From positions 62,001 through 126,000 of IMG/VR virus record IMGVR_UViG_3300029319_000002: a DNA stretch of 64,000 nucleotides; one strand, written 5' to 3'. Every line of letters starts with the position of its first letter. The stretch's first letter is position 1. Below are positions 10,816 to 30,800 of the stretch, in pieces. Made by a program: the position numbers and the translations under genes. This stretch comes from a virus. The notes beneath the pieces are model-generated. The model did not search any database, was not told the DNA's origin, and saw only the letters and a list, made by a program, of their open reading frames with translations.

Positions 10816-12705
10816 ATGTCAGCAACTCAGTATTTAAGTTTAGATTTTGATCAAATAAAAGATTCGATCAAGAGTCATCTAAGAGCAAACTCAAATTTTA
10901 CGGATTATGATTTTGAGGGATCAAATCTTTCAATCTTAATTGATATACTTGCATATAATACTTTTATTAACTCATACAACACCAACATGGTGGCAAATGA
11001 GGCATTTTTAGAAACTGCTAGTTTGAGAGAAAATGTTATAACTCATGCCGAAAATATTGGATATGTTCCTAGGTCTTCTAGAGCATCTAGAGCAAAGATA
11101 AGTTTTAGTATAGTTTTTCCAAATGATACAACTGCATCTTTTTTAACTCTTAAAAAAGGTCCAGTTGCAGTTTCAAATATTGTTAATTCTAACTACGTGT
11201 TTTCAGTAGTTGATGATATAACAGCACCGGTTAAAAATTTGGTGGCAGCATTTAATGAAATAGAAATAATTGAAGGTAGTGTAGTTGAGCAATCATTTAC
11301 AGTAGATACTTCATTATCTAATCAAAAGTTTCAGTTAAATAATCCAAAAATTGATACTACAACTATCAGAGTCAAAGTAAAAGAATCTGCAACATCTCAA
11401 ATTTATACTGATTTCAGATTAGTTGAGAATATCATCGGTGAATCTTCTTCAGAACCAATCTTCATTATTAAGGAATCTAAGGATGAAACATATGAACTCA
11501 TCTTTGGTGATGGATTTATCGGTAAAAAACTTGAAAATGGCAATGTTATTGAGGTATCTTACATAGTTTGTAATGAAGATGAAACTAACGGGTTCCAAAA
11601 TTTTATTTTTAACGGAAGACTTGTAGATAGTAACTTGTCATTTATTTCACCCGCAGGCATTAATATAACGGTGAATCAATCATCAATAGGTGGATCTAAG
11701 TTAGAATCAATAAAATCTATTAAAAATTATGCAAGTCGATATCTTGCGACTCAAAATAGAGCAGTGACAACTGCAGATTATGAAACATTAATACCAAAAT
11801 TGTTTTCAAAAGCGGAATCTGCAGTGGCATATGGAGGAGAAACACTAACCCCTCCTCAATACGGAAAAGTTTTTGTATCAATAAAACCAGATAATTCATC
11901 ATTCCTCTCTTTGTTTGATAAAACATTTATTAAAAATGAATTAAAAAAATATTCTCCGGTTGGTATTGATGTAATAATTGAAGATCTAAAATATCTTTAC
12001 ATTGAACTGGATGTAAATGCATATTTTGCGACAAATTTAACATCATCTGCTAGTGATATCAAATCAAAAATATTTACAATGATGTCGGCATTTGCAGATA
12101 GTGAGGATTTGACACGATTTGGGGGAAGATTTAAATATTCAAATTTTGTAAGTGCAGTGGATGATACTGATGTTGCTATTACATCAAACGTAACTAACGT
12201 TATTTTAAGAAGAGATTTAATTCCAGAGATTAATTCTTTCTTCAGTTATGAGTTATGTTATGGAAATACTTTATTTGCACCATTAAATAGTTCATATAAT
12301 ATAAAAAGCACTGGATTTACCATTGATAAGTATACTGATATTGTATACCTAACTGATTTTGCTACTAGTTCTACTACTGGCAGATTATTATTATTCAGAA
12401 TTGATCAAAATGGTGCTCCAGAAGTTCTAGAAAGTAACGTTGGTACAATAAATTATACGACTGGTGAATTGTTTATAGATAGTTTGAATATAACTTCAAC
12501 AACTTTATCAAATGGTGTAATTGAAGTTGAATGTTTACCACAATCATATGATTTAATAGGATTGCGAGATTTATTTTTAAATCTATCTGTATCCAAATCC
12601 ACAGTTACAATGATTAAAGATGATATCTCTTCTGGATCAGACACATCTGGAGTTAATTTTATATCTACTCCTCAGTACAACAAATCAGGATTTTTCAGAA
12701 CATAA
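10816..12705 (+). CDS. gp6: gp6-like baseplate wedge protein (629 aa)
   Basis: Baseplate wedge subunit of the J family, which forms the inner baseplate ring. The N-terminal MSATQYLSLDFDQIKDSIKS with DFEGSNLSILIDILAYNTFI (about residues 35-54) is the conserved start of gp6. The stretch IFGDGFIGKKLENGNVIEVS (about 233-252) is the gp6/J core hairpin. Length resembles T4 gp6 (660 aa). The C-terminal 120 residues look less conserved. It follows gp25 by one base and precedes the giant gene by six. Confidence 0.92.
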   Translation: MSATQYLSLDFDQIKDSIKSHLRANSNFTDYDFEGSNLSILIDILAYNTFINSYNTNMVANEAFLETASLRENVITHAENIGYVPRSSRASRAKISFSIVFPNDTTASFLTLKKGPVAVSNIVNSNYVFSVVDDITAPVKNLVAAFNEIEIIEGSVVEQSFTVDTSLSNQKFQLNNPKIDTTTIRVKVKESATSQIYTDFRLVENIIGESSSEPIFIIKESKDETYELIFGDGFIGKKLENGNVIEVSYIVCNEDETNGFQNFIFNGRLVDSNLSFISPAGINITVNQSSIGGSKLESIKSIKNYASRYLATQNRAVTTADYETLIPKLFSKAESAVAYGGETLTPPQYGKVFVSIKPDNSSFLSLFDKTFIKNELKKYSPVGIDVIIEDLKYLYIELDVNAYFATNLTSSASDIKSKIFTMMSAFADSEDLTRFGGRFKYSNFVSAVDDTDVAITSNVTNVILRRDLIPEINSFFSYELCYGNTLFAPLNSSYNIKSTGFTIDKYTDIVYLTDFATSSTTGRLLLFRIDQNGAPEVLESNVGTINYTTGELFIDSLNITSTTLSNGVIEVECLPQSYDLIGLRDLFLNLSVSKSTVTMIKDDISSGSDTSGVNFISTPQYNKSGFFRT

Positions 12706-12711
12706 AGTAGA

Positions 12712-15700
12712 ATGTATATCAATCTAGAAGATCGCAAAGTATTAATTGAAGATGTAGTTTCCGGGTTTGTTCCAGATTTTATTCTGGAAGAGAATCCACT
12801 ATTTTTAGAATTTTTAAAATCATATTTTAAATCCAGGGAAGCATTTGGATCTGATATTGATATAATAAGAAACATACTACAATATCAAAAATTAGAAAAA
12901 CTTTTTTCTATTAAAGAAACCACTACATTATCTTCTGATGTCACTGAATTTGCCAATACTATCACAGTAGCATCCACAGAAGGATATCCTTCTAGATTTG
13001 GTTTAGTTCAAATAAATGATGAAATTATAGCATATGAGAGTAAGACTGATACTCAATTCAAAAATTGTTTTAGAGGTTTTAGTGGTGCGACGGAATTAGG
13101 AAAGTATACTGATAGGAACACATATACTTTTAAAAATACAAATGCACAAAGACATTCGTCTGGAGATGTTGTAAAAAATATTAGTATTCTATTTTTAAAA
13201 GAATTTTTATTTTATTTAAAATCAAAGTATTTACCAGGATTTGAAAATGTTGATTTCTATCCAGGAGTTAATGAAGAACTAGTAATTGCTAGCATTAAAG
13301 ATTTTTATTCTTCAAAGGGAACTTTTAATTCATTTGAAATTCTTTTTAGGATTTTATATGGAGCAGATCCAATAGTCTTCTTACCAAAAGAAAAGATTTT
13401 AAAACCCTCAGCATCTGAGTATATCAACGCTACTGAATTAATTGTTGAAGTAAAAAGTGGAGATATTAATAATATTAAAGGATCAACAATTTTTCAAGAA
13501 AGTAATACTATCCTTGATGTAGAAGAATCTGAGGGTGTTGTTTTTGATGTCAATTTCTTAGAATCAATTCAAATACCTGAAAGATTTTTTGAGTCTGGAA
13601 CCTCTTCTCAAAGTGGAAATATTATAACTGTTGTTTCAGCAGATCATGGATTGAGAAATGGGAATTCGGTATATATTAAATTTTCAGAAATTGATGGTGG
13701 AGGCACATCTGAAAGTAAAGTATACACCCAGGTTTTAGTTGTTGATAATGACACTTTTCAGGTTTTTAGTTCTACAAGTAAAATAGTATTAAATCAATCA
13801 GCTAATATTAATACTATTATTGAAAACACTAATGACATATACAAAATAAAATTAAGTAGAGTTGATGGAAAATTTTATTTTGCAGGAAAGACTCTTTTAA
13901 GAAAATTAGTTTCTCCAAACGATACTGCAGTTTTTGTAGACTCTACTGTTGGATTTCCTGAAAGTGGATCAATAGAAATCAATGGGGATACTGTTCAATA
14001 CACTTCAAAATCAATTAATGCATTTAAAGGATGCACCGGAATAGATGTTGCTGCCAACATAGGATCTCAGGTTACTTCTAATTTGACAGTAGTATCTTAT
14101 GAAAACGGTGATAAAGCAAAACCAGTTGTGATGAGAATTGTTGACTCTACTACTAATGAATTATCTAATGATAATATTATTGTAAAAAATAATACTAAAC
14201 TAAAAATAAAAAGTATTGGATCTGTAGAAAGTAACTATATTGCTGATAGTTTCATCCAAAATACTCCAGTAGAGTATGAGGTTGCCGATGTAGATTTAAT
14301 TAGCAATAAATTACTTTTCAAATCTCCTCATAATTTTCTTTCTGGTGATAGAGTAGATATAAAAGATTTTTTTGCAGTCAATGAAAATGGAATAAGAAAT
14401 AAACTTTATTTTACTAACGTTCTTATTACAACAAATATTAATACTCCTAATCAGATAGAAATAACTCAACCAATAAATCCAACATTAGATGGTAAAAAGG
14501 TTGTAGTTTCTAAGTCACTTCAGTTTGGACAAGTTTCCCCAGATTTTCAAAACTTAGATAAAGAACCTGCTAACGTTCAAAGAATTTTAAAAGATAATAA
14601 TAAAAATTATTATGCTGCAACAAGCTCTATTCCAGAGTTTTTAATTTCACTAAATCCAAGATCTAATAGTACAGTAAAAACTTTTACAACATCTGATGGA
14701 AGTTTAGTCTTTGGTTCAGATGATTCTTTAATTTTTAATGTTAATCACAATTATAATTCTGGTGATAAAGTAAAATTTATAATAACAGGATCTCAAAAAT
14801 CTATTGATCAAATTGCATATGTCAAAAAAATTGATCAGCAAACACTAAAATTATCACTATCGGCATCATCAGTAGATTCTAATGATTTTATTGACATTGA
14901 TTCATATAAAACCGATGCTGGTGGGAGTAATTTTACGGTAACTTTAATTAGAAATGAGTTTGCAGATAGAACTACAGAAGATCAGCAACTTATAAGACAG
15001 ATCAGAAGTAATAATAACTTTGGTGAAACTTATGATTTTGATATGAAACCATATCAACCATTTGGTGTTTTGGTTGATGGAGTTGATTTATATCCACCAT
15101 TTACTACAGATGAAATTAATTATGGTAAGATAGAATCAATTACAACATTAGATGGTGGATCAGGATTTGATATTATCAATAAACCAGTAGGAATTTTTAC
15201 CGGAACAACAACCGGAATTGGATGTAGTGTAAAAATATTTGTTGAAGGTGAGATTCAGGATATTTTAGTTACAAACAAAGGAAAAAATATCAAAAATATT
15301 CCTAATATAAAAGTTTTAGGTGGAAATAATTCTGATGTAAAATTGACTCCAGTTTTAGTCGAAGAATTTATTAGTAAAAATTTCTCACCCACAAAAGATG
15401 TAAGTCTAATCAATGATACCATTACATTTTCAGATGGGCATGTATTTGAAACGGGAGATAGAGTAAAATATAATTTAGTTGGAATTGGTACTTCCATTGG
15501 AATTAGTGGTGGAGGATCTTTAGTAAATAACTCGGAATATTTTGTTATTGGTATAAACACCACTACAATTAAATTAGCAAATACTAAATTAGAATCTTTT
15601 AATGGTACTGCTATTAATTTTGGAAATACTTTAGGATCTGGATCACAGAAATTAACATCAGTAGATCCAAAAACAATTTTAGATAGGGTTGATATTACTA

Positions 15701-18700
15701 GTCCCGGTACATTCAAAAATCACGAAATAGCATTTAGCACTATTATTGAAGAGTATCCTCCAACTAAAACTTACTCAAAGATTTTAAAAGGAATAAATCA
15801 AGAATCAGATTATTTTTATTATAGAGATCACGGATTCTCTACTGGTGATTTAATTCAGTATACTTCAGCAAGCACCGTTATTGGTGGTTTAGTAAATAAC
15901 AATTATTATTATATTATAAAACTTGATGAAGATGCATTCAGACTAGCACATGCAGGATCTAATATTGAATCTCTTTCAAAAACAAACTTTGATGATAATT
16001 TATTTGTAAAGATAACTTCAATTCCTGTTTCGACGGGGCATGTATTTAAAATACCTCCAATTACCTTTACCATAGAAGATTCTATGGCAACTGTAGTTCC
16101 AACCATAGAACCAATCATTCGTGGAAAAATTAAGTCTGTCACTTTAGATAGTTTTGGACAACAATATGGATCACAGGTTGTGAACTTAATTAGATCTCCT
16201 AAACTTGAAATCAGTAAAGGAACTGGAGCAATTGTCAATTTAATTATATCTAATGGAAGAATTGATAGTGCTTATGTTGCTAATGGTGGATCTGGATATT
16301 TTAATACACCCAATTTAATTGTAAATCCTGGGAATAGTTCTGGAAAATTTGCAAAGTTATTTGCAAGAGTAAGTAATGGCATCATAACTGCTGTGGATGT
16401 TATTTCTGGAGGATCAAACTACGACAATACATCTAGTGTTACGATAGAAACACCCGGATCTGGAGAAAATTTTGATATTCAACTGCAAAAATGGAAAGTA
16501 AATACCATTGCTAAAAATGTCCTGAATGCAAATGGTGATTTTACTAATAATGAATATTATATTATTCCTGGAAGAGACTCTACAAATCAGATAGTCTCTT
16601 CATATGCTCCTAAAACTCTTAGATCTAAGTTTGGTGATACTGAAAATAGATCCGATTCTGATATTGCAGGTAAATCTTTCCCACACTCAAAAATTGTTGG
16701 GTGGGCTTTTGATGGAAATCCAATTTATGCTCAGTTTGGATATAAAAATGCTACATCTACATCAGAGGGTGTCAAAAGAATAAAGAGTTGTTATACTTTA
16801 ATTCCACCAGACACAATCAATGCAGATCCGAATAGACCTAATATAAATGATTATTTTATTGGATATTTTATTAATGATTATTATTACGATAATCAAATTG
16901 GTGATCTTGATGAATTTAATGGTAGATATTGCATCACTCCAGAATTTCCAGATGGAACTTATGCTTATTTCTCAACAATAGGTGCTAATGGTAAACCTGC
17001 TTTTCCATATGCGATTTATGGATTAAAAGATAGATATTCTTCATTTAATTTAGATTATCTAAAATCTAATCAATCATACCTGCAAGATATACAAGATGAA
17101 TTAGTTACTTGTACTTCCACATATTCTTTTAAAAATGAAATCACTAATTATCCATTTTTAAAGAATGAAATCAATAAAGAATTGTTAGTAGTACAGGATC
17201 AAAACAAATCAATTTTAAAAAATCTTAAAGTAGTTGATGCTGGTAATAATTATAGAGTTGATGATACTGTAGTAGTAGAAAATGATGAAATATTTGGAAA
17301 AAATGCTAAGGGATTGATTACTTCAATTAAGGGAGTAGGAATCAACACAATAACTACAGTAAGAACTGGAATATCAACAGTATTTTTTGACATTAGACCC
17401 AATTTTGTTAGAGCAATTGTTGAAAAACCACATAACTTTGTTGATAGGGATAATGTTAGGGTTATTATTGCTGGAATTAATACAAGCAATTTTACCTTCC
17501 TGAACAATACTTACCCTATTAATGTAGATAAACCAACAACAACTCTTATAGAATCTATTCCAAACGCTGGAGTAACCACAGAATTAAAAATATCTGATAG
17601 TGTTGAATCTCTAGGAATATTTGTAGATGATTTTATTAAAATTGATAATGAGAAAATGAAAGTTCTCAGAGTTGACAATGATTCTAATCAAATTAGAGTT
17701 CAAAGAAATGTTGATGGAACAACGATAGCATCTCATACAGCATTTTCAAACGTAAATATTTTACCATCTACGTTTGATTTTACAACTGGAATTCAAACAA
17801 GTATTTTTACTCAAAAATACAATAAAATTTATTTTAATACATCTAACGTTGGTATAGGATCAACCACAACCACTATGATTGATTTTGTAGGAATACAAAC
17901 TCAAATAAAAGTGCCATTTAAGAGATTATATGCTCCATCTCATAAATTTGAAACAAATCAAGAAGTGACTTATAATTTTGATACTGTAAATGGGATAGGA
18001 TTAACTGTATCGGACACGTCAGATCTATCTCAAACTAGAACTTTGAATAATGGTGATAAATTATTTGTCGTGAAATATGATGATGATTATCTAGGGTTAA
18101 GTAGTGAAAGAGTTCTTCTTGGAGCAGGATATACTGCAATCACATATGATCCGGGATTTTATTTCCCGGTTAGCATGGTTGGAGATCCGTATGATCAATC
18201 ATTAACTTTTAATAAATTGCCTGTTGGTGAAGCATCTGAATTACAAACTACAATTGATACTGCAAAGGTTCATGGACTATCTTTGAATGATAAGATCAAA
18301 TTAAATGTAAAACCAAATTTCGTAAAAGAATATCAATTATTTTTTGATACAAATTACAATTCATTTAAACTTCCTAATTTATTTGTTAACTCTGGATTTT
18401 CTTCTGCACAAAATACAATTACATTTAATAATCATGGACTCAAAACAAATGATAGAGTCATTTACACTGAAGAAACGGGAGATTCATTAGGACCAGATTT
18501 TGTTGATGGGGACTTCTATTTTGTTAAAGTATTCTCTGAAAATACTTTCTCTCTAGGTAATACTAAGAATTCTATTTTAAGGGATGATGTTTTAAATATA
18601 ACTGCAAATAGTGGATCCTATTCCCTGTCACCATTAGATCCAAAAATAACTGCGGTTAGAGGATCTAAAGTAAAATTTGTTGGTGTTGCTACTTTACCGG

Positions 18701-21700
18701 CCTCATTGCAATTCTTTGATGTAAATGAACCTAAGTTAGGTAAAGATATTAACACTTCATCCTTTAGTTTTACAAACGATAGTATAGAGATTGACACTAC
18801 AGATTTACCTTCAGAGATCTTCATTTATCCTAAACAAAATGGATTTTCTCTAGGTAAGTCTGGAGCATCTATAGAAGTAATTGAATCTGTATATAATAAT
18901 GAGTATAAAGTAACTGGAATATCTTCTAATACTCAATTTAATATTGAACTTTTTTCTGATCCTTCCATCTTATCATATGGATCAACAAATTCTTCTCTTG
19001 AATATAGTACAACTTCAAATACTGCTTTGGGTCCTATTAATGACATCAAGATAATTAATCGTGGATCACTATTTTTATTCCCTACAGGCATTGCCACAGT
19101 AAAATCCAAAACTGGAAATAATTCTATTATCAATTATGAACTAGAAAAAAGTGATGAGGGAACAAATGTAACTCGTCTAATAAATTCGATTTATGATTTT
19201 ACATCTGATAAAACATATACATTAAATGCAGATGTTCCTTCAATTGTATCTGTAAGATCTAATAACAAAATCGTAGGAATAAGAGTAACTGATTCTGGTC
19301 GTGGATATATTGAACCTCCTAAAGTTAAGATTTTGAATCAACCAGATATCTATTCAATATCTAATTTATCTGGAAATTCTGTGGGGTCTGTTAATCTAAT
19401 TTCAAAGAATAATGGAATTCTATCAGATTCTGTTACTGTCTTTGCAGATTTTCATACCAATGGTGTACAAGTCACTAGGGTAACAGTAGAAGCAGATAAT
19501 ACCAGTATTAATTTATTCATAAAAGAACCAAATAATGGATTTTCTGAATTTCCATTCGCATTAAATGATGAAATCTATGTTGATGGAATTGTAGCAGAAT
19601 CGGATAGCGGAACTGGATTTAATTCAAGTGATTATGATTTTAGATTCTTTAAAGTAATTGGAATAACAACAACTCCAGGATCTGCTAATGTAAGATATTC
19701 AATTGCAGGGACAGCACAGACTGCAGGAACTTTTGATTCTCTTAAATCTTATGGTAGAGTAATTAAAAAAGAAGATCTTGCAAAATTTGAAGCCTTGTTA
19801 GAGTCTTCAAATTACACTCCCGGTGAAATTATTACCAGCAATAGTGGATTTTCTGGAAAAATTGCTAATGATGGATGGAACTCTAAAAATAAAATTTTAT
19901 CCATAATTGAACAAAATGGTGAATTATCTGTCGGAGATGTATTAACGGGAGCAGAATCTGGTGCAAAATCCATAATTAATTCTACAACCGATTACCAGTC
20001 AACTATAGTTAGAAACTCATTATCAAAAAATGAAATTGATGTCGAAGATGGAATAGGTAATTTAAATGAGGAGGATCAAGTTCTTCCCGATAACTTCTAC
20101 CATCAATCTTTTGCATATGATATTATTTCTGATGTATCTCTAGACAAATGGGAAAGTACGGTAAGTAGTATTAATCATATTTCAGGATTTGAAAAATTCG
20201 GAACTTTTGTTGTAAATAATGACGTTGGTATAGGAGTTAGTTTTGGTGAGGGAAGCGCACAATCTAGTATTGTTGTCGTAAATGAATTAGTTAATCTTAA
20301 TACAACATATCAATTTGATTTAGCAAGTGAAAATATTATAGACACAGGACTATTTTCATTATCCAACGAAATTGCATTTAATTCTAGGAGAATAACAGAT
20401 AGTATCGAAGCAAAAACTAATCGTGCTGTACTGATTGATGATATATCACCAAATTTTACAGGTGAGTATGATGCAGATGATGGAGGACAATTTGTTGGTG
20501 TAACTTCATTTAGACTGACTACTAGTGAAACTGGAATTACTACATCGTTATTCGTCAAATATTTTGATTCTGCTGCAACTACTGTTGTTAGTGTTAGTGA
20601 TGATAAGATTACTATTCCATCTCATAACTTTAGTACAGGTGAACTTCTTGAATATAGTGTAGAAGGTGGAACACTTATTTCTATCGGTTCTACTGATAAA
20701 ACTCTAGCAGGAGTTACAACTACTAAATTACCAAGTCAAGTATTTGCTATTAGAATTGATGATGATAATATCAGACTTGCAGGTTTATCATCTGATGCTA
20801 AGAGTCAAAGATATTTTGATATTAGTGCTGTTGGATCTGGATTACAAAAACTTACATCTACAACTCAAAATACTAGATGTATGCTTCTAATTGATGGTAT
20901 TATTCAGAGTCCATTATCAACATCAGACATCAGTGCATCTATAGCAGGTTTTGTTACATCTAGTACAGAAACTTCTATTCCTTTAGTTGGAATTACATCT
21001 ATTAACACTAATAGTTTGATTCAGATTGAGGATGAAATAATCCGAGTAGATGTTGTGGGGTCTAACACTGTACAGAACTTGCTTACGTACAGTGAGCGTC
21101 TTGATGAGTGGACAGCTGGTAATAATACAACGGTGACTCCTAATGCAGTTACTGCACCTGACGGGACCCGTACCGCTGATCGTGTTTACAACCTAAACGC
21201 AGGTTCAACTTTTGTAGGTATTGGAACAATCGATATTGGTACTACTTACACAGCTTCTGTGTATGCAAAAGCAGTGACATCTGGGACCAACAATAAGTTT
21301 ACTTTTAACATAGGTGGGGGTGTAGACAATGCTTCATCTCAGTTCACTACGACTGATGAATGGCAGAGGTTTACTTTTACACATACGCCCACATCAGTGT
21401 CAGCTGCGCCAACTAACAGGCTATATATCAATAACGAAGGTGACGGTTTTGTCTCTGACATCTACGTTTGGGGAGCCCAACTTGAAGAATCTTCAACTGC
21501 AAGTAGATACATTCAGTCCGTAGAATCTTTTGTTTCCCGTGCATCTACTGCAACGTATGTGGATGATACGACTGGGTTGGTCACTACTGCTGCTGTAGAT
21601 ACTGCACGTTACGAGGATGGTAAACTGATTCTAGAAGATGCTAGTACGAACTATGCTCTAAATTCTGACTCTGCCCTAGGGAGCACAATAGGATCAACTC

Positions 21701-24700
21701 TCGTCGCTACTACGGAGAATATTGTTTCTCCACGAGGTATTGTTGAGACAGTAAGGAAGATTACAAAGGGTGGAGGACTTAGTGTTTATAGAATAGGTAA
21801 TGCAAGTGCTAGTGCCCCTGATGCAGTATATGCAATTAGTTTTTGGGTTAAGATGGCTTCCACCGGTACACCTGGTTTTAATATTGACATTAATGATGTA
21901 GCTCCAACATCACATCCCGAATTTTCACCCGACCAAACTACTACTGAGTGGAAACGTATTGTTGCAATTGGTGGGTTTAGGGATGATGGTGGTGCAGCTG
22001 GGCACAGGTTCTTCGACATTAACCTCACCGCATCCAACGATGTACCCCTTTACATATGGGGTACTCAGATTGAACAAGCTGAATTTGCAAGTTCTTACAT
22101 TCCAACCACCAGCAGTGCCGTAACCCGTGCTGCGGATGTATCGACCAGCACAACCGGTTCTGCAAGTATTGTTACTGCTGAGAGGGGTGTATTAGGTTCT
22201 GTTGCTGGAGAACATGCTGTAGGTTCTGCTACGACCGTTAGAGAGGGTCAGTATATCATTAGAGATGATGTTGTTTTCTTTGATAGTCCTCCTCTAAGTG
22301 GAGTGAATACAGTATTTAATTTTGAGCAAACTGGAATTCCCACAAGTTTCTCAAGAATGAGATTTCATGGAAGAGTATTCAGTAGATTAAGTTATGAAAA
22401 TAATAAAATCTTTGACGATATTTCTCAACAGTTTGATGGTACTGAAAGTGTATTTGAATTACTTTCAAATGGAGACTCTACGGAGGATATCTTCTCATCT
22501 GCTGCAGGTATTTTAACTGGTACAGATGTTAGTAGTGGTGTAATTCTACTGAATAATATTTTCCAAGTTCCAAGTATAGATTATGATCTAGTTGAAAATG
22601 TTGGAGTTGGTGCATCCGTTGAATTTACAGGAACTTCTGCCAAAGAAGATCTTCCTAAAGGTGGTAGAATTTCAGAATTTACTATTGAGAGAGGTGGTGG
22701 ATATCAACCCCTCACTAGAGCAAGTGCAATTATTGATACGTCTGCCGGACAATTATCAGGTGGTTCTATTACAGGACTAACATTAGTTGAAAGGGGAAGT
22801 GGATATCGTGAAGATACATTAGTAACGATTCACAATTCAAATCCAGGAACTGGTGCTACAATTCATGCTTTAGTTGGAACTGGAACATACACTGGAAATA
22901 GTGTAGGAGTTCAAACTTTTACCTATGATAATTCAATTGGAATAGCCACAGTAGGAACAAATTCTGCACATGGATTACTGATTGGAGAACTGCCAAACGT
23001 AAATCTGACAGGTATAATTACTAATATATTCCCAGGTGAAAATAGAATTGAAGCATTTGGAGTATTAGATATTATTGATACTCAAACTTTCATTATAAGT
23101 ATTGGGACAAGTTCTACAAGTTATTCATATTCTAGTGGAGGAAACGTTTCTCCAGGATCTAATGTCGGATTTATAACAGGATTTAGAATTGATAGTGGTG
23201 GATCTAATTATACCTCAGGAAATAGTCTTCTTCCCATTATTCCATCACCAAAATCATACTCTCAACTATCTTTACAGGGTGGTTCTGGAAGTGGAGCTGT
23301 TGGTGATTTAGTCATCATTGGTGCAGGAGGAACAACCTTTACATTTGAACTTACTGATAGTGGAATTGGATATAGGGAAAATGACGTATTGACTATTTCT
23401 GGAATTCCAACTTCACCATACTATAGTGGAACTCACACAGATTTTAGTTTAACTGTAGATAGTACACTTAGAGATAAATTCTCCGCATTCACATTTGGTG
23501 AGATGCTTTTATTTGATGATATATCTTCACAGGCAAATGGTGGAAGAGTTTCATTTAGTTTGACAAGAACTGTTGATGGAACTAAGTCCTTAGTAAGTTT
23601 AGATGCCGTAGATGGGGCAACATTTGATATTAGAAATAATTTACTCGTATTTGTCAATGATATTTTACAAATACCTGGAGTTGCTTATAAATTTAATGGC
23701 GGAACGAAGATTACTTTCACTGAGCCACCAAAAAAAGGATCTAAAATTGCTATCCTATACTATAAGGGATCTGATGAGGATATTATCGAAATTGACATCT
23801 TAGAGACTGTTAAAAAGGGTGATTTACTTAGATTAGATAAGTATGACCCACTTAATCTTGATCAACAAAATCAAAGACGTGTATTTGATATTTTATCATC
23901 TGATGTTGCTGAAACAAATAATTACAGCAATGTTGGACTTGGAACTGATCCAGAATTATTGAGACCGATTGATTGGACTAAACAATCTAGAGATTTAATT
24001 ATTAACGCTGAGATAATTTATAAAACAAGACCTGAATTAATTACCAAACCAATACCAAATACTAATATTATTAAATCAATAACAACATCAGATTCGGAGA
24101 TTTTTGTTGATACTGTTAAAAATTTTGAGATAGATTCTTTATCTGAAATTGATAATGATTTATTATTAGTTGATAATAGTTTTGGTCAATATGTTGGTGC
24201 ATCCGCAACAATTACAGTTTCTGAAAAAATTGTTCAAACTATTTCTGTGTCTGCTGGTGGATCTGGATATTATGATGCTCCAAATGTTAGTATATTCAGT
24301 CCTGTACCTCAGGAAAAAATTACTGGAATTGCCTGGGATGGAGATGATAATGTTGGTATTATAACTTACTCTACAGATACCAATATTGGAGTTAATCCTC
24401 TAGCAGTGGAGACCGCTTCTATTGATGCCGGTGTCGTTGTAACTGTTGAAGATGGAAGTTCATTATCAATTAATGGAGTTCAGTTTATTGGCAGAGAGTT
24501 TAATTCTATCCAATACTCAACATCCGATCAACGATATGTCGTTGTGGGTGATAATGGAATTGTTGGATATAGCACCGTTACTGAAAAAATTAATCACTTA
24601 GTTCAACCTGCAGGATCCGAATTATTCAATGAAAAACTCAACGGAAGTGCTGCTGGTGTCAAAGGATATGGTGAAGTGTATTACATTGTTGGTGATGGTG

Positions 24701-26223
24701 TTGTTGGATTTGCATCTGACATTAAAGGAGTTTATAGTAGAGTTGATACTGCGTTCCCACCTGTTGTTGGAGGTATTGTAGGATCTTCAAATCTCGATCC
24801 CAATACTAAAGTATCATTTACGGATATCAATTTACGTGATATTAAGTATTTTAATACTATTGATAAAGCAGTTGCAGTTGGTGGAACAATCATGGTCAAC
24901 TCTTTTGCAGATCCCGGTGAAGATTGGCAAATGGTTAACATTGACAGCACTCTAGGTGGACCTGGAGGACAGTATCTAAATGCAATTGCATATTATAATA
25001 GACAGGATGCCTCTAATCCAGGAGCACCACTTTCTGCGGGATATGTTGCTGTTGGACATACAAATTATATCTTCAAGAGTCATAGTGGAACAAAATGGAA
25101 TGAAGATGGAACTTCACTATCCTTCCAAGTTCCTCAATCATCTTTACCATCTCAAGCATTAAATAAAAATTTCCTTGGAGTTGCTGCAAATAATGATGAA
25201 ATTGTTGTTGTTGGAACTGAAGGTCTAATTATTAGAGCAACTACTTTGAAATCTAATTCAGATTCCTGGACATATGTTGGAGTAAGTACGACTGAAGATT
25301 TTATTGACGTTGTAAGAACTTCTAATGCTTTTGTTGCTATTTCAACAACCGGAAAAACCTTTACCTCTACTCAAGGAATTACTTGGACAGAACAAAGTTC
25401 GGAACTTTATGGAATCGGTAAAACAATTAATGATTTACTATATGTTGAAAGTTTGGACAAAGTTGTTGCTGTTGGTGCATCTAGTGGAACTTCTGCCTTG
25501 ATAGCAGAAAGTGATAATTCCACTGTAGTTGCAACATTTACTGCTGGAGTTGCCAATGGAATTGTTACTAGTATAACTATTAATAATCCTGGATATGGAT
25601 ATAGTGAAACTAATCCCCCAATTATTCAGGTTGCTCCTCCAATTGCTAAATATGAAAATATAGAAAATGTTAAAGTTGAAGGTGATTATGGTATTGTAGT
25701 TTCTATTTCTACAGTAGCAGGAATTAATACTGACATTGGAATTGAATTTCAATTAAAAACTGATCCTTTATTAAATTCTCCTTTGTATGATGCTTTCACT
25801 ATCACTAGCAGTGGTATTGAAACTGGATATTACTTTAGCATTACTGATTCCATTTTTGCATCTTCTGAGGAATTTGCTGGTGTAGATGAATCCAATAATA
25901 ATATTGTTCTTTCTGATGGACTTGAAAAAATCTATAGAGCATCCTCAGTAATAACTGATACTGTGGTAGGTATAACGACTGTTGTCTCTGACATCAATTT
26001 AACTGAGTTTGCAGACTTAGATTCTGTTATTTCTGCCGTTGGATCTGCATATACTGAATATTCTCATGTTGCTAGGTATAGTTGGGGAAGAATATTTGAT
26101 TTTGATAGACCAAATCCAAAATCCTATTCAATTAAGGTTGGTTTTGGTTCAGATCATAATAATACTGGGTTATCTTCTAATCCAATTGTTATCAGAAATA
26201 AGCAAATAAAGGAAAATTACTAA
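12712..26223 (+). CDS. gp7: Giant gp7-like baseplate/tail structural protein (4503 aa)
   Basis: A single uninterrupted frame of 13.5 kb in the gp7 position between gp6 and gp8. Residues 1-60 (MYINLEDRKVLIEDVVSGFV, then LEFLKSYFKSREAF) match the N-terminal pattern of the large cyanophage baseplate wedge protein. The rest is a beta-rich mosaic. It has several IxxExIxY...RGxxG hairpin modules (first near residue 100) and many GGSGY/GGSNY repeats. A two-unit carbohydrate-binding-like insertion occupies about residues 2786-3155. A BNR/Ycf48-like propeller lies at about 3916-4270. T4 gp7 is 1032 aa, so about 3400 residues are added. gp7 is the best guess by position; a wedge-fibre fusion is possible. 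Confidence 0.8.
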   Translation: MYINLEDRKVLIEDVVSGFVPDFILEENPLFLEFLKSYFKSREAFGSDIDIIRNILQYQKLEKLFSIKETTTLSSDVTEFANTITVASTEGYPSRFGLVQINDEIIAYESKTDTQFKNCFRGFSGATELGKYTDRNTYTFKNTNAQRHSSGDVVKNISILFLKEFLFYLKSKYLPGFENVDFYPGVNEELVIASIKDFYSSKGTFNSFEILFRILYGADPIVFLPKEKILKPSASEYINATELIVEVKSGDINNIKGSTIFQESNTILDVEESEGVVFDVNFLESIQIPERFFESGTSSQSGNIITVVSADHGLRNGNSVYIKFSEIDGGGTSESKVYTQVLVVDNDTFQVFSSTSKIVLNQSANINTIIENTNDIYKIKLSRVDGKFYFAGKTLLRKLVSPNDTAVFVDSTVGFPESGSIEINGDTVQYTSKSINAFKGCTGIDVAANIGSQVTSNLTVVSYENGDKAKPVVMRIVDSTTNELSNDNIIVKNNTKLKIKSIGSVESNYIADSFIQNTPVEYEVADVDLISNKLLFKSPHNFLSGDRVDIKDFFAVNENGIRNKLYFTNVLITTNINTPNQIEITQPINPTLDGKKVVVSKSLQFGQVSPDFQNLDKEPANVQRILKDNNKNYYAATSSIPEFLISLNPRSNSTVKTFTTSDGSLVFGSDDSLIFNVNHNYNSGDKVKFIITGSQKSIDQIAYVKKIDQQTLKLSLSASSVDSNDFIDIDSYKTDAGGSNFTVTLIRNEFADRTTEDQQLIRQIRSNNNFGETYDFDMKPYQPFGVLVDGVDLYPPFTTDEINYGKIESITTLDGGSGFDIINKPVGIFTGTTTGIGCSVKIFVEGEIQDILVTNKGKNIKNIPNIKVLGGNNSDVKLTPVLVEEFISKNFSPTKDVSLINDTITFSDGHVFETGDRVKYNLVGIGTSIGISGGGSLVNNSEYFVIGINTTTIKLANTKLESFNGTAINFGNTLGSGSQKLTSVDPKTILDRVDITSPGTFKNHEIAFSTIIEEYPPTKTYSKILKGINQESDYFYYRDHGFSTGDLIQYTSASTVIGGLVNNNYYYIIKLDEDAFRLAHAGSNIESLSKTNFDDNLFVKITSIPVSTGHVFKIPPITFTIEDSMATVVPTIEPIIRGKIKSVTLDSFGQQYGSQVVNLIRSPKLEISKGTGAIVNLIISNGRIDSAYVANGGSGYFNTPNLIVNPGNSSGKFAKLFARVSNGIITAVDVISGGSNYDNTSSVTIETPGSGENFDIQLQKWKVNTIAKNVLNANGDFTNNEYYIIPGRDSTNQIVSSYAPKTLRSKFGDTENRSDSDIAGKSFPHSKIVGWAFDGNPIYAQFGYKNATSTSEGVKRIKSCYTLIPPDTINADPNRPNINDYFIGYFINDYYYDNQIGDLDEFNGRYCITPEFPDGTYAYFSTIGANGKPAFPYAIYGLKDRYSSFNLDYLKSNQSYLQDIQDELVTCTSTYSFKNEITNYPFLKNEINKELLVVQDQNKSILKNLKVVDAGNNYRVDDTVVVENDEIFGKNAKGLITSIKGVGINTITTVRTGISTVFFDIRPNFVRAIVEKPHNFVDRDNVRVIIAGINTSNFTFLNNTYPINVDKPTTTLIESIPNAGVTTELKISDSVESLGIFVDDFIKIDNEKMKVLRVDNDSNQIRVQRNVDGTTIASHTAFSNVNILPSTFDFTTGIQTSIFTQKYNKIYFNTSNVGIGSTTTTMIDFVGIQTQIKVPFKRLYAPSHKFETNQEVTYNFDTVNGIGLTVSDTSDLSQTRTLNNGDKLFVVKYDDDYLGLSSERVLLGAGYTAITYDPGFYFPVSMVGDPYDQSLTFNKLPVGEASELQTTIDTAKVHGLSLNDKIKLNVKPNFVKEYQLFFDTNYNSFKLPNLFVNSGFSSAQNTITFNNHGLKTNDRVIYTEETGDSLGPDFVDGDFYFVKVFSENTFSLGNTKNSILRDDVLNITANSGSYSLSPLDPKITAVRGSKVKFVGVATLPASLQFFDVNEPKLGKDINTSSFSFTNDSIEIDTTDLPSEIFIYPKQNGFSLGKSGASIEVIESVYNNEYKVTGISSNTQFNIELFSDPSILSYGSTNSSLEYSTTSNTALGPINDIKIINRGSLFLFPTGIATVKSKTGNNSIINYELEKSDEGTNVTRLINSIYDFTSDKTYTLNADVPSIVSVRSNNKIVGIRVTDSGRGYIEPPKVKILNQPDIYSISNLSGNSVGSVNLISKNNGILSDSVTVFADFHTNGVQVTRVTVEADNTSINLFIKEPNNGFSEFPFALNDEIYVDGIVAESDSGTGFNSSDYDFRFFKVIGITTTPGSANVRYSIAGTAQTAGTFDSLKSYGRVIKKEDLAKFEALLESSNYTPGEIITSNSGFSGKIANDGWNSKNKILSIIEQNGELSVGDVLTGAESGAKSIINSTTDYQSTIVRNSLSKNEIDVEDGIGNLNEEDQVLPDNFYHQSFAYDIISDVSLDKWESTVSSINHISGFEKFGTFVVNNDVGIGVSFGEGSAQSSIVVVNELVNLNTTYQFDLASENIIDTGLFSLSNEIAFNSRRITDSIEAKTNRAVLIDDISPNFTGEYDADDGGQFVGVTSFRLTTSETGITTSLFVKYFDSAATTVVSVSDDKITIPSHNFSTGELLEYSVEGGTLISIGSTDKTLAGVTTTKLPSQVFAIRIDDDNIRLAGLSSDAKSQRYFDISAVGSGLQKLTSTTQNTRCMLLIDGIIQSPLSTSDISASIAGFVTSSTETSIPLVGITSINTNSLIQIEDEIIRVDVVGSNTVQNLLTYSERLDEWTAGNNTTVTPNAVTAPDGTRTADRVYNLNAGSTFVGIGTIDIGTTYTASVYAKAVTSGTNNKFTFNIGGGVDNASSQFTTTDEWQRFTFTHTPTSVSAAPTNRLYINNEGDGFVSDIYVWGAQLEESSTASRYIQSVESFVSRASTATYVDDTTGLVTTAAVDTARYEDGKLILEDASTNYALNSDSALGSTIGSTLVATTENIVSPRGIVETVRKITKGGGLSVYRIGNASASAPDAVYAISFWVKMASTGTPGFNIDINDVAPTSHPEFSPDQTTTEWKRIVAIGGFRDDGGAAGHRFFDINLTASNDVPLYIWGTQIEQAEFASSYIPTTSSAVTRAADVSTSTTGSASIVTAERGVLGSVAGEHAVGSATTVREGQYIIRDDVVFFDSPPLSGVNTVFNFEQTGIPTSFSRMRFHGRVFSRLSYENNKIFDDISQQFDGTESVFELLSNGDSTEDIFSSAAGILTGTDVSSGVILLNNIFQVPSIDYDLVENVGVGASVEFTGTSAKEDLPKGGRISEFTIERGGGYQPLTRASAIIDTSAGQLSGGSITGLTLVERGSGYREDTLVTIHNSNPGTGATIHALVGTGTYTGNSVGVQTFTYDNSIGIATVGTNSAHGLLIGELPNVNLTGIITNIFPGENRIEAFGVLDIIDTQTFIISIGTSSTSYSYSSGGNVSPGSNVGFITGFRIDSGGSNYTSGNSLLPIIPSPKSYSQLSLQGGSGSGAVGDLVIIGAGGTTFTFELTDSGIGYRENDVLTISGIPTSPYYSGTHTDFSLTVDSTLRDKFSAFTFGEMLLFDDISSQANGGRVSFSLTRTVDGTKSLVSLDAVDGATFDIRNNLLVFVNDILQIPGVAYKFNGGTKITFTEPPKKGSKIAILYYKGSDEDIIEIDILETVKKGDLLRLDKYDPLNLDQQNQRRVFDILSSDVAETNNYSNVGLGTDPELLRPIDWTKQSRDLIINAEIIYKTRPELITKPIPNTNIIKSITTSDSEIFVDTVKNFEIDSLSEIDNDLLLVDNSFGQYVGASATITVSEKIVQTISVSAGGSGYYDAPNVSIFSPVPQEKITGIAWDGDDNVGIITYSTDTNIGVNPLAVETASIDAGVVVTVEDGSSLSINGVQFIGREFNSIQYSTSDQRYVVVGDNGIVGYSTVTEKINHLVQPAGSELFNEKLNGSAAGVKGYGEVYYIVGDGVVGFASDIKGVYSRVDTAFPPVVGGIVGSSNLDPNTKVSFTDINLRDIKYFNTIDKAVAVGGTIMVNSFADPGEDWQMVNIDSTLGGPGGQYLNAIAYYNRQDASNPGAPLSAGYVAVGHTNYIFKSHSGTKWNEDGTSLSFQVPQSSLPSQALNKNFLGVAANNDEIVVVGTEGLIIRATTLKSNSDSWTYVGVSTTEDFIDVVRTSNAFVAISTTGKTFTSTQGITWTEQSSELYGIGKTINDLLYVESLDKVVAVGASSGTSALIAESDNSTVVATFTAGVANGIVTSITINNPGYGYSETNPPIIQVAPPIAKYENIENVKVEGDYGIVVSISTVAGINTDIGIEFQLKTDPLLNSPLYDAFTITSSGIETGYYFSITDSIFASSEEFAGVDESNNNIVLSDGLEKIYRASSVITDTVVGITTVVSDINLTEFADLDSVISAVGSAYTEYSHVARYSWGRIFDFDRPNPKSYSIKVGFGSDHNNTGLSSNPIVIRNKQIKENY
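21064..22179 (+). other. Inserted higher-GC double carbohydrate-binding-like module inside the giant gene
   Basis: In-frame segment of about 370 residues. It holds two similar units, each with a YTASVYAKA- or YAISFWVKM-type strand, an EWQRF or EWKRI strand, and an IYVWGAQLE or LYIWGTQIE strand followed by ASRYIQS or ASSYIPTTSSAVTRAADV. This is the carbohydrate-binding-like module seen in many phage fibres. Base composition shifts: one 60-base line inside (21121-21180) is 30/60 G+C, one outside (20281-20340) is 11/60. The flanks IEDEIIRVDVVGSN and AERGVLGSVAGEHAVG read as the two halves of one hairpin module. Confidence 0.7.
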
Positions 26224-26259: not shown

Positions 26260-27810
26260 ATGCCAGCCCACATAACTGATCAATTTAAAATTATTAATGC
26301 GAATAATTTTGTGGAGTCTGTTAAAAGGACTACAGAAAATTATTATACCTGGTTAGGTTTACCAGATCCAACCAACACCTTAATAGGTGGTGTTTCAAAT
26401 TGGAATAGTTCCACTCCAAATCCCATTGATAATTTTAAAAATCAAAATGATTATCATGACACAATGCTTTTCTTTAAGAAAATAACTGAAGGTGATGTAA
26501 AAAGAGTTATAAGAAGAATTAATTGGGTTTCTGGACAGAAATATGACATGTATAGACATGATATTTCTGTCAATAATTTGACAAATGTAACTAATAGCAC
26601 AACATTATATTCATCTAATTTTTATGTAATGAATTCTGATTTCAGAGTTTATATTTGTTTAAATAATGGCACTAATCCTGAAAATCCAAATGGAAAACCT
26701 TCTCTAGATGAACCCGTCCATACTGATTTAGAACCAAAATCTGCCGGATCCAGTGGAGATGGATATATTTGGAAATATCTTTACACTATTAGCCCGATTG
26801 ACATCATTAAATTCGTTACAAAGCAGTTCATACCGGTTCCTAATAATTGGGGAACTAAAGATACTCAAGAAGTAAAAAATACTTCTATTCGTGGCAGAAT
26901 TGAAACTGTTTTAGTTAGTAGTTTTGGTAATAACAATTATACTCCTGGAGTATATTCAAATATTCCTATCAAAGGAGATGGAACAGGAGGATTAGTTAGT
27001 ATTGTTGTTGCAAGTAATGGAAAAATTTCTTCAGTTAGTGTAATTAATGGTGGTAATGACTATAGCAGAGGAATAATAAATTTTGATAAAGATAGTGTTC
27101 CTAGTTTGAACTCCGGAACTGCAGCAACATTTGATGTAATTATTCCACCTAAAGATGGTCATGGAAACAATATCTATAGAGAATTGGGATCAAATAGAGT
27201 AATGATTAATACGGTGTTTGATAATAATTCATCTGATAATAGTTTGGATTATATTATTGGAAATAATTTTGCAAGAATTGGAATTATCTACAATCCTACA
27301 GTAACTTCCAGTGTTACTAATACAGGAACTGCTCTTGGAGCAATTAAAGTTAAGAGTACGAATGAAAATATACCAATTTCTGATACAACATACAATGTAA
27401 ATAATGTAATTAAACAGTCAGTTTCTACAGGGACAACTGCTGCTGCATATGTTGCATCTTACGATGCAAACAATGGAATCATAAGGTATTATCAACCAGT
27501 AGGATTAGCAAGAAGTGATACTAATTACGAATTAAATAATTTTAAATTTGTTTCTGGTGATCAAAGTGCAATTACAATCACCGGAAATAGTTCAGGAAAT
27601 TCATTGATTATTGATGATTTTACTGGAAGTTCAGTAACTGATCCAAATACTGGTGTAAATGTTCCTTTTGGAACTGAATTTGTAAATGGAATTGCGAAAC
27701 CTGAAATTCAACCTAAATATAGCGGTGACATAATCTATATTGATAACAGGGCTTCTGTTCCTAGATCCAACAATCAGAAAGAAGATATCAAAATTGTACT
27801 AGAGTTTTAA
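26260..27810 (+). CDS. gp8: gp8-like baseplate wedge protein (516 aa)
   Basis: Baseplate wedge subunit. ITDQFKIINANNFVESVKRT near the start, YTWLGLPDP and RINWVSGQKYDMYRHDIS (about residues 86-103) are the conserved gp8 signature of T4-like cyanophages. Another conserved block is GYIWKYLYTISP (about 168-179). T4 gp8 is 334 aa; the extra residues are in the centre and C-terminus and include one GGNDYSRGI repeat of the GxGY type. It follows gp7 as in T4 and ends six bases before the next gene. Confidence 0.88.
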   Translation: MPAHITDQFKIINANNFVESVKRTTENYYTWLGLPDPTNTLIGGVSNWNSSTPNPIDNFKNQNDYHDTMLFFKKITEGDVKRVIRRINWVSGQKYDMYRHDISVNNLTNVTNSTTLYSSNFYVMNSDFRVYICLNNGTNPENPNGKPSLDEPVHTDLEPKSAGSSGDGYIWKYLYTISPIDIIKFVTKQFIPVPNNWGTKDTQEVKNTSIRGRIETVLVSSFGNNNYTPGVYSNIPIKGDGTGGLVSIVVASNGKISSVSVINGGNDYSRGIINFDKDSVPSLNSGTAATFDVIIPPKDGHGNNIYRELGSNRVMINTVFDNNSSDNSLDYIIGNNFARIGIIYNPTVTSSVTNTGTALGAIKVKSTNENIPISDTTYNVNNVIKQSVSTGTTAAAYVASYDANNGIIRYYQPVGLARSDTNYELNNFKFVSGDQSAITITGNSSGNSLIIDDFTGSSVTDPNTGVNVPFGTEFVNGIAKPEIQPKYSGDIIYIDNRASVPRSNNQKEDIKIVLEF

Positions 27811-27816
27811 TAAACA

Positions 27817-30800
27817 ATGTCCGAGACACTCAATCTTAATTCGTTTCCTTACTTTGATGATTTTGACGAATCAAAAAATTACAAGAAAGTTCTGTTTAAA
27901 CCTGGAGTATCAGTTCAGGCTAGAGAGTTAACTACTCTTCAATCTTCTATTCAGAATCAACTTGAGGCATTTTCGGACACGGCATTTTTTGATGGACAGA
28001 TTGTTGAGGGTGGAAGTTTAAATTATATTCCAAAACTTGATTATGTTTTATTAGAAGACACTTTTAATGGAATTCCAGTATCTTCTTATATTAATAATTT
28101 TAATAATCTTGTCTTAATTGGTGAATTAACTGGCATACAAGCAAGAGTTATTTCAGTAGTCTCTGCAGAAAAATCTGAAAAAGGAAAAACTACACTATAC
28201 GTTAAATATCTCTCATCCAATTCTACCGATTTTACTGAAAAGACCTTTAGAGATTCAGAACAATTAATAACACAAACATCCGTAAACATTGGGACTACAG
28301 TATTCTTTGAGAATACACCTATGGCAAAGTGTGTCTCTACAAATGCCACTGGATTAGGATCTGCGATTAAATTAAATCCTGGAAAAACATATATTAGAGG
28401 ATTTTTTGTAGATTTTGATGAAAAATTACTCATTTTAGATCAGTATGAAACAGAACCCAGCTATAAAGTTGGATTTGAAATAGATGAAAAAATTATAACC
28501 TCATTAGAAGACTCTAGTCTCAACGATAATGCTAGAGGGTTTTCAAATTTTTCTGCACCAGGAGCAGATAGACTCCAAATTTCATGTGAGTTAGGAAAAA
28601 AGACGATAGATGATTTAGATACTGATACTTTTGTAGAAATATTAAGATTTGAAAATGGAATATTAAAATATAAGAGTCCTGAAAGAAGTTATAATTTTAT
28701 AGAAGATGAATTAGCTAGAAGAACATATGATGAGTCTGGAGATTATATTGTAGATGATTTTGATGTACAGATTGATGAAACTCTTAATGATCTAAAAAAT
28801 TCAAATGGACTTTACTTAGATACTGAAAAAACTTATAAGAATAATGAACCTTCAGAAAGTTTAGTATCTGTTTCTATATCACCCGGAAAGGCATATGTAA
28901 GAGGATATGAGATTGAAAAAATTTCAAATACAATATTTGAAGTAGAGAAAGCAAGGGATTCAAAACTAATTGAAGATTCTACAATTCCAGTCAATTTCGG
29001 TAAAAAAGTTATAGTTAACAACATTAATGGATTACCAAACACTGGAATTACAACTTACTATGCAGAACTCAGAAATAGAAGAAAAGATGGAGATCATTTA
29101 AGTGGAAGTGGAGATATTGTTGGATATGGAAGGATTTATGATAACAAATTGAGGGAGTCTTATAGTAATAATTCTAGTGAGCAAGACCTATATCTTTATG
29201 ATTTACAATTTTTATCTGAAATCACTGTTAGTTCAAATATTGTAAGCTATCAGGTAGGATCTTTATTGGAAGGTAAAAATAGTGGTGCCATTGGATATAT
29301 TGCAGGAACAGATGGACTCGAAACTGATCCTACAGGAGTATCCACGTTTACTGTCTATAGAGTAAGTGGAAACTTTGTTCCCAATGAACCTTATCATATT
29401 GATGGTATTTTAGATGCAAGATTAATTAAAACTGTAACTAACTTTAGTTTTGATGACACTAAATCTATTAAAATGGTTGGATCTGGTGTTACATATACCG
29501 CAGACTTGCTGCTAACAAATGAAACCCAATTAGGTGATTTTGGTAATACTTATAATATAACTGCAAGAACTAGTGAAACTGGCATTTCTACCATTACATC
29601 AACTGACAATAGATTTACTAGAGTTAGAGTAAATGATATTATTAAATATACTCTCCCCGGAATCTCAACATCTTTTCCCACACTTAATAGAGTTGTTTCT
29701 GTAAATACTGCAGAAAATAAAATTACAGTTTCTCAAGTTGAGGACGTATCTAATTTCTGCGACGGTGATCTTCCTAGTGCAGCTACAACCGTAAATGATT
29801 TAGTTATTGCTAGACCTGGAATGGAGGTGTCTAGTGATCCTGGACTATTTGCAAGCATTCCTGAAGAATTAGTTTCTGATATTGATATTGATTCCTCCAT
29901 ACTTTCTGTAAGAAAAGAGTATAATGTAAATATTGCAAACTCTTCAGGAACAGTTAATGAGGGTGACCCAAATTTTGCTTTTGTTGGATATGGAATTGAT
30001 AAGTATATTCTTATATACTCCGATGGAACAATAGAACCACTAACTAGCCAAAAGATTGTCCTATCAGGAAGTTCTAGGCAACTAGATTTAAAGTCTTTGA
30101 CAAAGACAACCGACACTGGAGCAACTTTGATTGCTACTTTAGATAAAAGAAACTTAACCACAACAGGAAAAACTATTAGAGGTGAAAGTGCCTTTGTCTC
30201 TAGATCTACTAGCCCAATATCAGGATCTGGTAAAGACACTCTCAATGATGGACTAACACCAGATGTTCAAGGAAAGTATGGAACTAGAGTTCAAGATAGA
30301 GATATTTGTTTAAATCACCCCGATGTGATAAGAGTAAATGCCATATTTGAATCTGAAAATCTTACAGATCCTCTAACACCAACTTTAACTCTTACTAATA
30401 ACACTTCTTCACTAATAGAGTCTATTCCTGGTGAAGAAATTGTTGGTGAAAGTTCTGGTGCTGTAGCAAAAGTAGTTGATAATTTACCTCTTCAAACTAA
30501 TACAACCACAAAAGTTAATTTTGTATATTTAAATAGTAAAAGATTTAATATTGATGAAAAAGTAACTTTTAAATCTACTAATATATCTGGAAATATACAA
30601 TCTTTAACTTTTGGTAGTAGAGATGTAACTTCCAATTTTAGTTTTGATAGTGGACAAAGAGATGATTATTATGATTTTGGAAAAATTGTAAGAAACAAAA
30701 CTGGATATGTTCCAGCAAAGAGACTTTTAGTTATATTTGATAGATATGAATTATCTGCGGGAACAAATAACATTGTAAACTATGATAGCTATGCATTTAC

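Follow-up and report, generated by a model that had tools for sequence, protein, structure and literature searches.

Phage tail proteins undergo ongoing domain gain and exchange, both in receptor-interacting and in baseplate proteins (PMC10684548). In the Bacillus myophage Vp4, the wedge protein Gp119 carries carbohydrate-binding module (CBM) folds, the first of them of the CBM16 type (2ZEY), and decorates host cells, whereas its Deep-Blue homologue Gp177 lacks CBM folds and does not decorate them (PMC11406892). The RcGTA head spike fibre, in turn, binds capsular polysaccharide (PMC10218006). Here, we describe two CBM-like units within the T4-like gp7 baseplate wedge protein of an uncultivated virus, in a segment that was very probably gained by insertion.

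The window, the whole stretch of 64,000 nucleotides that was analysed, corresponds to bases 62001-126000 of a 196,048-base IMG/VR record (IMGVR_UViG_3300029319_000002). The record contains photosystem reaction-centre genes of the psbA/psbD type (PF00124) and a capsid protein 73-76% identical to those of Synechococcus phages, two features which, on gene content and similarity, identify the virus as a cyanomyovirus. Each end of the record has a photosystem reaction-centre match (bases 14-181, partial and at the very start, and 193032-195608), and in the actual genome the two ends may adjoin one another. All features of the window described below lie on the plus strand and are numbered within it. 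The giant gp7-like protein that bears the insert (12712-26223; 4503 residues) matches the phrog_2885 baseplate wedge subunit profile with E = 0 and 1983 bits. It occupies the position of a T4-like gp7 in the wedge cluster, flanked by the genes for the wedge proteins gp6 (10816-12705; phrog_219) and gp8 (26260-27810; phrog_438), with a VrlC-like giant structural protein beyond (27817-35217; phrog_358, 1727 bits). The gene order gp25-gp6-gp7-gp8-VrlC is also present in named cyanophages such as S-SM2, where VrlC is annotated at the matching place; gp7 of named cyanophages is annotated as 'baseplate wedge initiator'. Elsewhere in gp7 there is a YHYH domain (16684-16983; PF14240, E = 2.8e-24), which has been counted among the host-recognition domain types of related phages (PMC7029224).

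A foreign segment of 1,095 bp (21061-22155; 365 codons), in frame at both borders, interrupts a hairpin module of gp7. The left half of this module (TSIPLVGITSINTNSLIQIEDEIIRVDVVG; 20971-21060) aligns without gaps to the IMG/VR relatives L014-L018 and to L023-L025, and its right half (GSASIVTAERGVLGSVAGEHAVGSATTVR; 22156-22242) aligns to relatives in register. The alignment to L014-L018, whose flanks are 55-64% identical to the window gp7, stops on the left at gp7 residue 2783 and restarts on the right at residue 3149 (3154 for L018), with almost nothing between the two aligned parts in the DNA of these relatives. Their uninterrupted VVGFGSTNVLTVDRG corresponds to VVG-[insert]-GSASIVTAERG in the window, which bears out the proposal of the initial annotation that a single module is interrupted and that its halves join once the insert is removed. 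That annotation had placed the start of the insert correctly at 21061, but its end, at 22182, was too far by nine host codons, the stretch beyond the true end at 22155 being the GSASIVTAE of the host hairpin.

The insert is composed of a first CBM-like unit (21076-21528; NLLTYSERLDEW...YVWGAQLEESSTASRYIQSVES), a linker (21529-21648), a second CBM-like unit (21649-22116; NYALNSDS...YIWGTQIEQAEFASSYIPTTSS) and a short C-terminal tail (22117-22155; AVTRAADVSTSTT). The linker contains a FVSRASxATYVDDTTGL motif, of a type characteristic of the tail and head fibres of phages, that is conserved in a tail protein at locus L060 and occurs in a shorter form in L002 and L005; the motif of the C-terminal tail, the usual ending of such units, also closes the units of L060, L002 and L010. 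Unit 1 matches Pfam CBM_4_9 (E = 5.3e-8; 33.8 bits against a cut-off of 25.9). Unit 2 alone has no match in Pfam and is grouped by a unit HMM only, on which it scores as well as unit 1 (161 at gp7 residues 2980-3135, and 156 at residues 2789-2939 for unit 1), in agreement with the initial description of two related carbohydrate-binding-like units. For unit 2, a Foldseek search with a model of low confidence (pLDDT 49) returned CBM16, CBM4 and CBM22 structures as the best PDB matches, with a probability of 1.00 to CBM16/CBM4 entries and 2zey (CBM16) as the best, a tentative hint of a beta-jelly-roll fold; an AlphaFold model of the whole nested region had a mean pLDDT of 37, and no structure of this gp7 was found. 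Each of the two units also has a match among the phrog_5939 tail proteins, and the terminal part of unit 2 is similar to Rcc01080, the head spike fibre of RcGTA (E = 1.5e-10). On these similarities, each half of the insert is classed as a CBM_4_9/CBM16-like tail unit. The insert is present as a single copy within the 196-kb record. Searches against Pfam and PHROGs yielded only CBM and tail matches in it, and no endonuclease or intein domain, which led us to reject a self-mobile insertion through a homing endonuclease or intein. A transposon-like insertion was likewise rejected, as no 8-of-10 match indicative of a target-site duplication was found between the insert borders.

The state of the turn was determined in 103 other gp7s, comprising the eight loci L014-L021, 15 named cyanophage loci (L023-L037) and 80 further IMG/VR relatives, by aligning the joined window flanks to the full gp7s and by searching with the unit HMM. 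The turn is uninterrupted, and the insert missing, in 102 of them, a count of loci rather than of independent lineages given the near-duplicates among the 80 contigs. L014-L021 and 14 of the 15 named cyanophage loci align across the site without space for an insert, and their gp7s gave no unit HMM match. All 80 further relatives, which were fetched by the right flank only so that the state of the turn was not a factor in their selection, cross the turn with no unit and no more than 12 additional residues. Both near relatives (64%) and distant ones (about 30%) are among the gp7s with an empty site. The single exception is S-SSM7 (L027, GU071098.1), in which gp7 is encoded as two genes broken at the matching hairpin turn. 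Its left gp7 gene is alignable until just past IIKMDDELVKINQIG, and the right gene, which begins with about 85 extra residues, restarts at SQVVVERGAFGT; between the halves, in a split region at 12000-13450, lies a 340-residue protein assigned to phrog_677, 'baseplate wedge tail fiber protein connector'. Other gp7 splits were seen in B23 and DSL-LC02, at different places.

The composition of the insert is distinct from that of gp7. GC amounts to 0.445 in the insert and 0.315 in the remainder of gp7, and third-position GC (GC3) to 0.321 and 0.143, respectively. Drawing the amino acids of the insert with gp7 codon usage gave an expected GC3 of 0.151 +/- 0.018 (5,000 draws; z = 9.6), whereas gp7 control segments in the identical codon test reached a z of at most 1.8; the raised G+C and the composition break first noticed by eye in the letters of the sequence therefore withstand control for amino acid content. 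The CpG content, also remarked upon at the outset, is indeed raised (observed/expected 0.68 versus 0.40), but this is not unique, as values of up to 0.71 occur in segments elsewhere in gp7. A GC3 of about 0.3 is also attained by other genes of the window, and one of 0.435 by the capsid gene. The insert is therefore foreign to gp7 and the wedge genes but not necessarily to the genome, and the distance of its source is not given by composition.

The nearest relative of the insert that was found is the tail protein of L060, a protein of 1094 residues with several CBM-like units, which shares 75% amino acid identity over the 181 residues of unit 1 and the linker (76% at the DNA level) and was the only relative found in a prokaryote-genome collection. 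Its contig (JAAXIF010000024.1; L060/L066/L067) is binned in a Sphingobacteriales MAG, probably wrongly, because its lambda-J-type tail, tape-measure and phage DNA polymerase genes characterize it as siphophage-like. The closest homologue accordingly lies outside gp7 proteins, in an unrelated type of phage, which agrees with the foreign affinity suggested initially. The module order in L060 is permuted, the counterpart of unit 2 (38-43% identical) being upstream of that of unit 1; units of L002 and L060 together show 39-43% identity to unit 2. GC3 in the matching stretch of L060 is 0.47, and the value of the insert (0.32) falls between this and that of gp7 (0.14), which fits a donor pool of the L060 kind followed by partial adaptation. 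L060 itself is ruled out as the direct donor, since the DNA identity is only 76%. When searched against all phage records, the insert found a match in S-TIM54 alone, where the matching sequence belongs to a tail gene distinct from gp7. Named phages yielded no near DNA matches to it, the left-junction DNA pattern had no match across IMG/VR, and no second genome with the insert in gp7 was found in searches of phage records and IMG/VR.

The interrupted gp7 hairpin resembles a short module of many phage proteins (INVGSENISYTG..LTGVTRGVNGTTAATHSSGDAV) with the pattern TxIxVxxxxxFxxxGxIxIxxExIxxx...RGxxGTxAxxH. In a profile comparison, the gp7 hairpin matched empty hairpins of this kind with P = 1.2e-5 and a probability of 81%, agreement at RGxxG being partly by construction, as the hairpin sets were gathered with the RGxxG motif. 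Furthermore, a marine tail-protein family (L008/L041-L053/L068-L083) carries a related CBM-like unit, once or twice per protein, in the matching turn; with the unit removed, this family matches the empty hairpin with P = 1.4e-15. Directly compared, the gp7 hairpin and the nested family match weakly (probability 3%, 21 columns), and it is by way of the empty hairpins that the two are connected. Two tandem hairpin modules with a CBM-like unit in each turn were observed in L008 (352-2262), L046, L076 and L082. The presence of a filled turn both in gp7 and in the unrelated L008 family is suggestive of the nesting of units in this turn having arisen at least twice. It is conceivable, though on balance doubtful, that the hairpin turn is a general acceptor socket for ready-made binding cassettes on conserved phage scaffold proteins; equally tentatively, such a socket would be filled in the cyanophage gp7 and in the L008-family tail protein, and would have served in S-SSM7 as the point at which gp7 is split around the fibre-connector gene.

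We propose that a two-unit CBM segment of DNA from a tail-fibre or spike protein of another phage lineage entered the gp7 hairpin turn in frame. Because its points of entry and exit would be adjacent within a tight turn of the beta-hairpin, the insert could leave the folding of both hairpin and wedge scaffold unhindered, with the units hanging off. Each T4 wedge contains a single gp7. Every gp7 subunit would display a pair of units around the baseplate, and weak multivalent binding to host-surface polysaccharide would be gained in early adsorption. We infer that the fold stays intact, that the units are exposed, and how many copies a virion has (based on T4), as well as sugar binding and the role in adsorption. 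Receptor recognition by the insert is plausible by analogy with the RcGTA head spikes (PMC10218006) and with Vp4 Gp119 (PMC11406892), and an altered host range is a plausible, predicted effect. The initial annotation had envisaged a recent horizontal acquisition of a receptor-recognition cassette. The horizontal insertion is upheld by the empty sites, the GC3 deviation (z = 9.6) and the L060 homologue, but a recent date for it is at most faintly indicated, since no closely related genome, empty or filled, was found and the nearest relatives with an empty turn are 55-64% identical in the flanks.

Other histories of the segment have to be weighed against insertion. The CBM pair might be ancestral to gp7 and have been lost in relatives, domain loss at a turn being in principle as clean as gain; the plain turn in 102 of the 103 other gp7s would then demand very many independent precise losses, and the synonymous sites of the insert are foreign to gp7, which makes such a history highly improbable. 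Scarcely more credible is a metagenome assembly chimera, a suspicion that attaches to an uncultivated IMG/VR contig whose left junction recurs in no second record. A chimera would need two junctions within one gene, both in frame and enclosing a whole number of codons, precisely at the turn that holds a related unit in another protein family and at which the S-SSM7 gp7 is also split, and the GC3 of the insert, intermediate between gp7 and the donor-like L060, is expected under partial adaptation. That the segment is native to gp7, its GC raised by a Thr/Ala/Gly-rich sequence or by high expression, would accord with GC-rich first and second codon positions and with the GC3 of 0.3-0.43 of other window genes. 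This explanation is the least tenable, as the amino-acid-controlled simulation still gives z = 9.6 at third positions, and it is refuted by the empty sites of relatives, from which the segment is missing.

A weightier rival, although an unlikely one, concerns function: the units may be structural decorations that pack on baseplate neighbours or anchor a fibre without binding sugar. A related unit in the triplex wedge of E217 and Pa193 is treated as structural in the cryo-EM papers, and the site in S-SSM7 gp7 adjoins the fibre-connector gene. Against this, close relatives of the units occur in dedicated tail and head spike proteins, among them a capsule-binding one (PMC10218006), the units are similar to CBM_4_9 and CBM16, and Vp4 Gp119 provides a precedent (PMC11406892). 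By these analogies, it is somewhat probable that the insert is a glycan-binding adhesion module, and we consider likely the reading as a whole, in which an adhesion cassette was horizontally acquired into the gp7 turn. A core baseplate assembly protein, rather than a fibre, would thereby have acquired a receptor-type cassette, inserted cleanly and in frame at a specific permissive turn that is now identified. Should the turn be an acceptor site that is shared, domains for host contact may be hidden in giant structural proteins annotated merely as wedge subunits, and such inserts could improve the reading of the adsorption range of uncultivated cyanophages.

Among known systems, Vp4 Gp119 offers a close parallel: in both cases CBMs are borne by a wedge protein and missing from its homologues, and the CBM16 type of Gp119, represented by 2zey, is also the best Foldseek match of unit 2. 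Vp4 differs in belonging to another phage group, with another wedge protein and a Gram-positive host, and in that host-cell binding was demonstrated, whereas for the gp7 insert it is predicted; in the available text, nothing is said of a repeated hairpin turn as the insertion site (PMC11406892). The Pbunavirus triplex wedge (E217 gp45, Pa193 gp46; PDB 8env, 9b45) likewise places one unit of the family in a contractile-tail wedge, at residues 225-390 (unit HMM score 78; homologue locus L147, 1766-3280). However, that protein is of the DUF2612 type rather than a T4-like gp7, and its single unit is genus-wide rather than lineage-specific; the text of the Pa193 cryo-EM paper does not mention a carbohydrate role for it. 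RcGTA Rcc01080 shares a C-terminal unit motif similar to the insert but is a stand-alone capsid spike and not a baseplate protein. The marine multi-unit tail proteins (phrog_5939; S-TIM54, L060, RcapMu), the presumed donor family, have both the units and the linker motif, but are encoded by independent tail genes outside gp7, with up to four or five serial units. The L008-type proteins have a CBM-like unit in the equivalent turn of a homologous-looking hairpin, but are small marine phage tail proteins of fixed architecture, with one unit per hairpin and at times two tandem hairpins. The survey of domain exchange in tail proteins (PMC10684548) deals with the general phenomenon, and no mention of cyanophages was found in it. 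Thus, domain gain in phage tail proteins (PMC10684548) and CBMs in myophage wedge proteins were already known; the novelty lies in the place, a T4-like gp7, and in a single hairpin turn that has apparently been used more than once.
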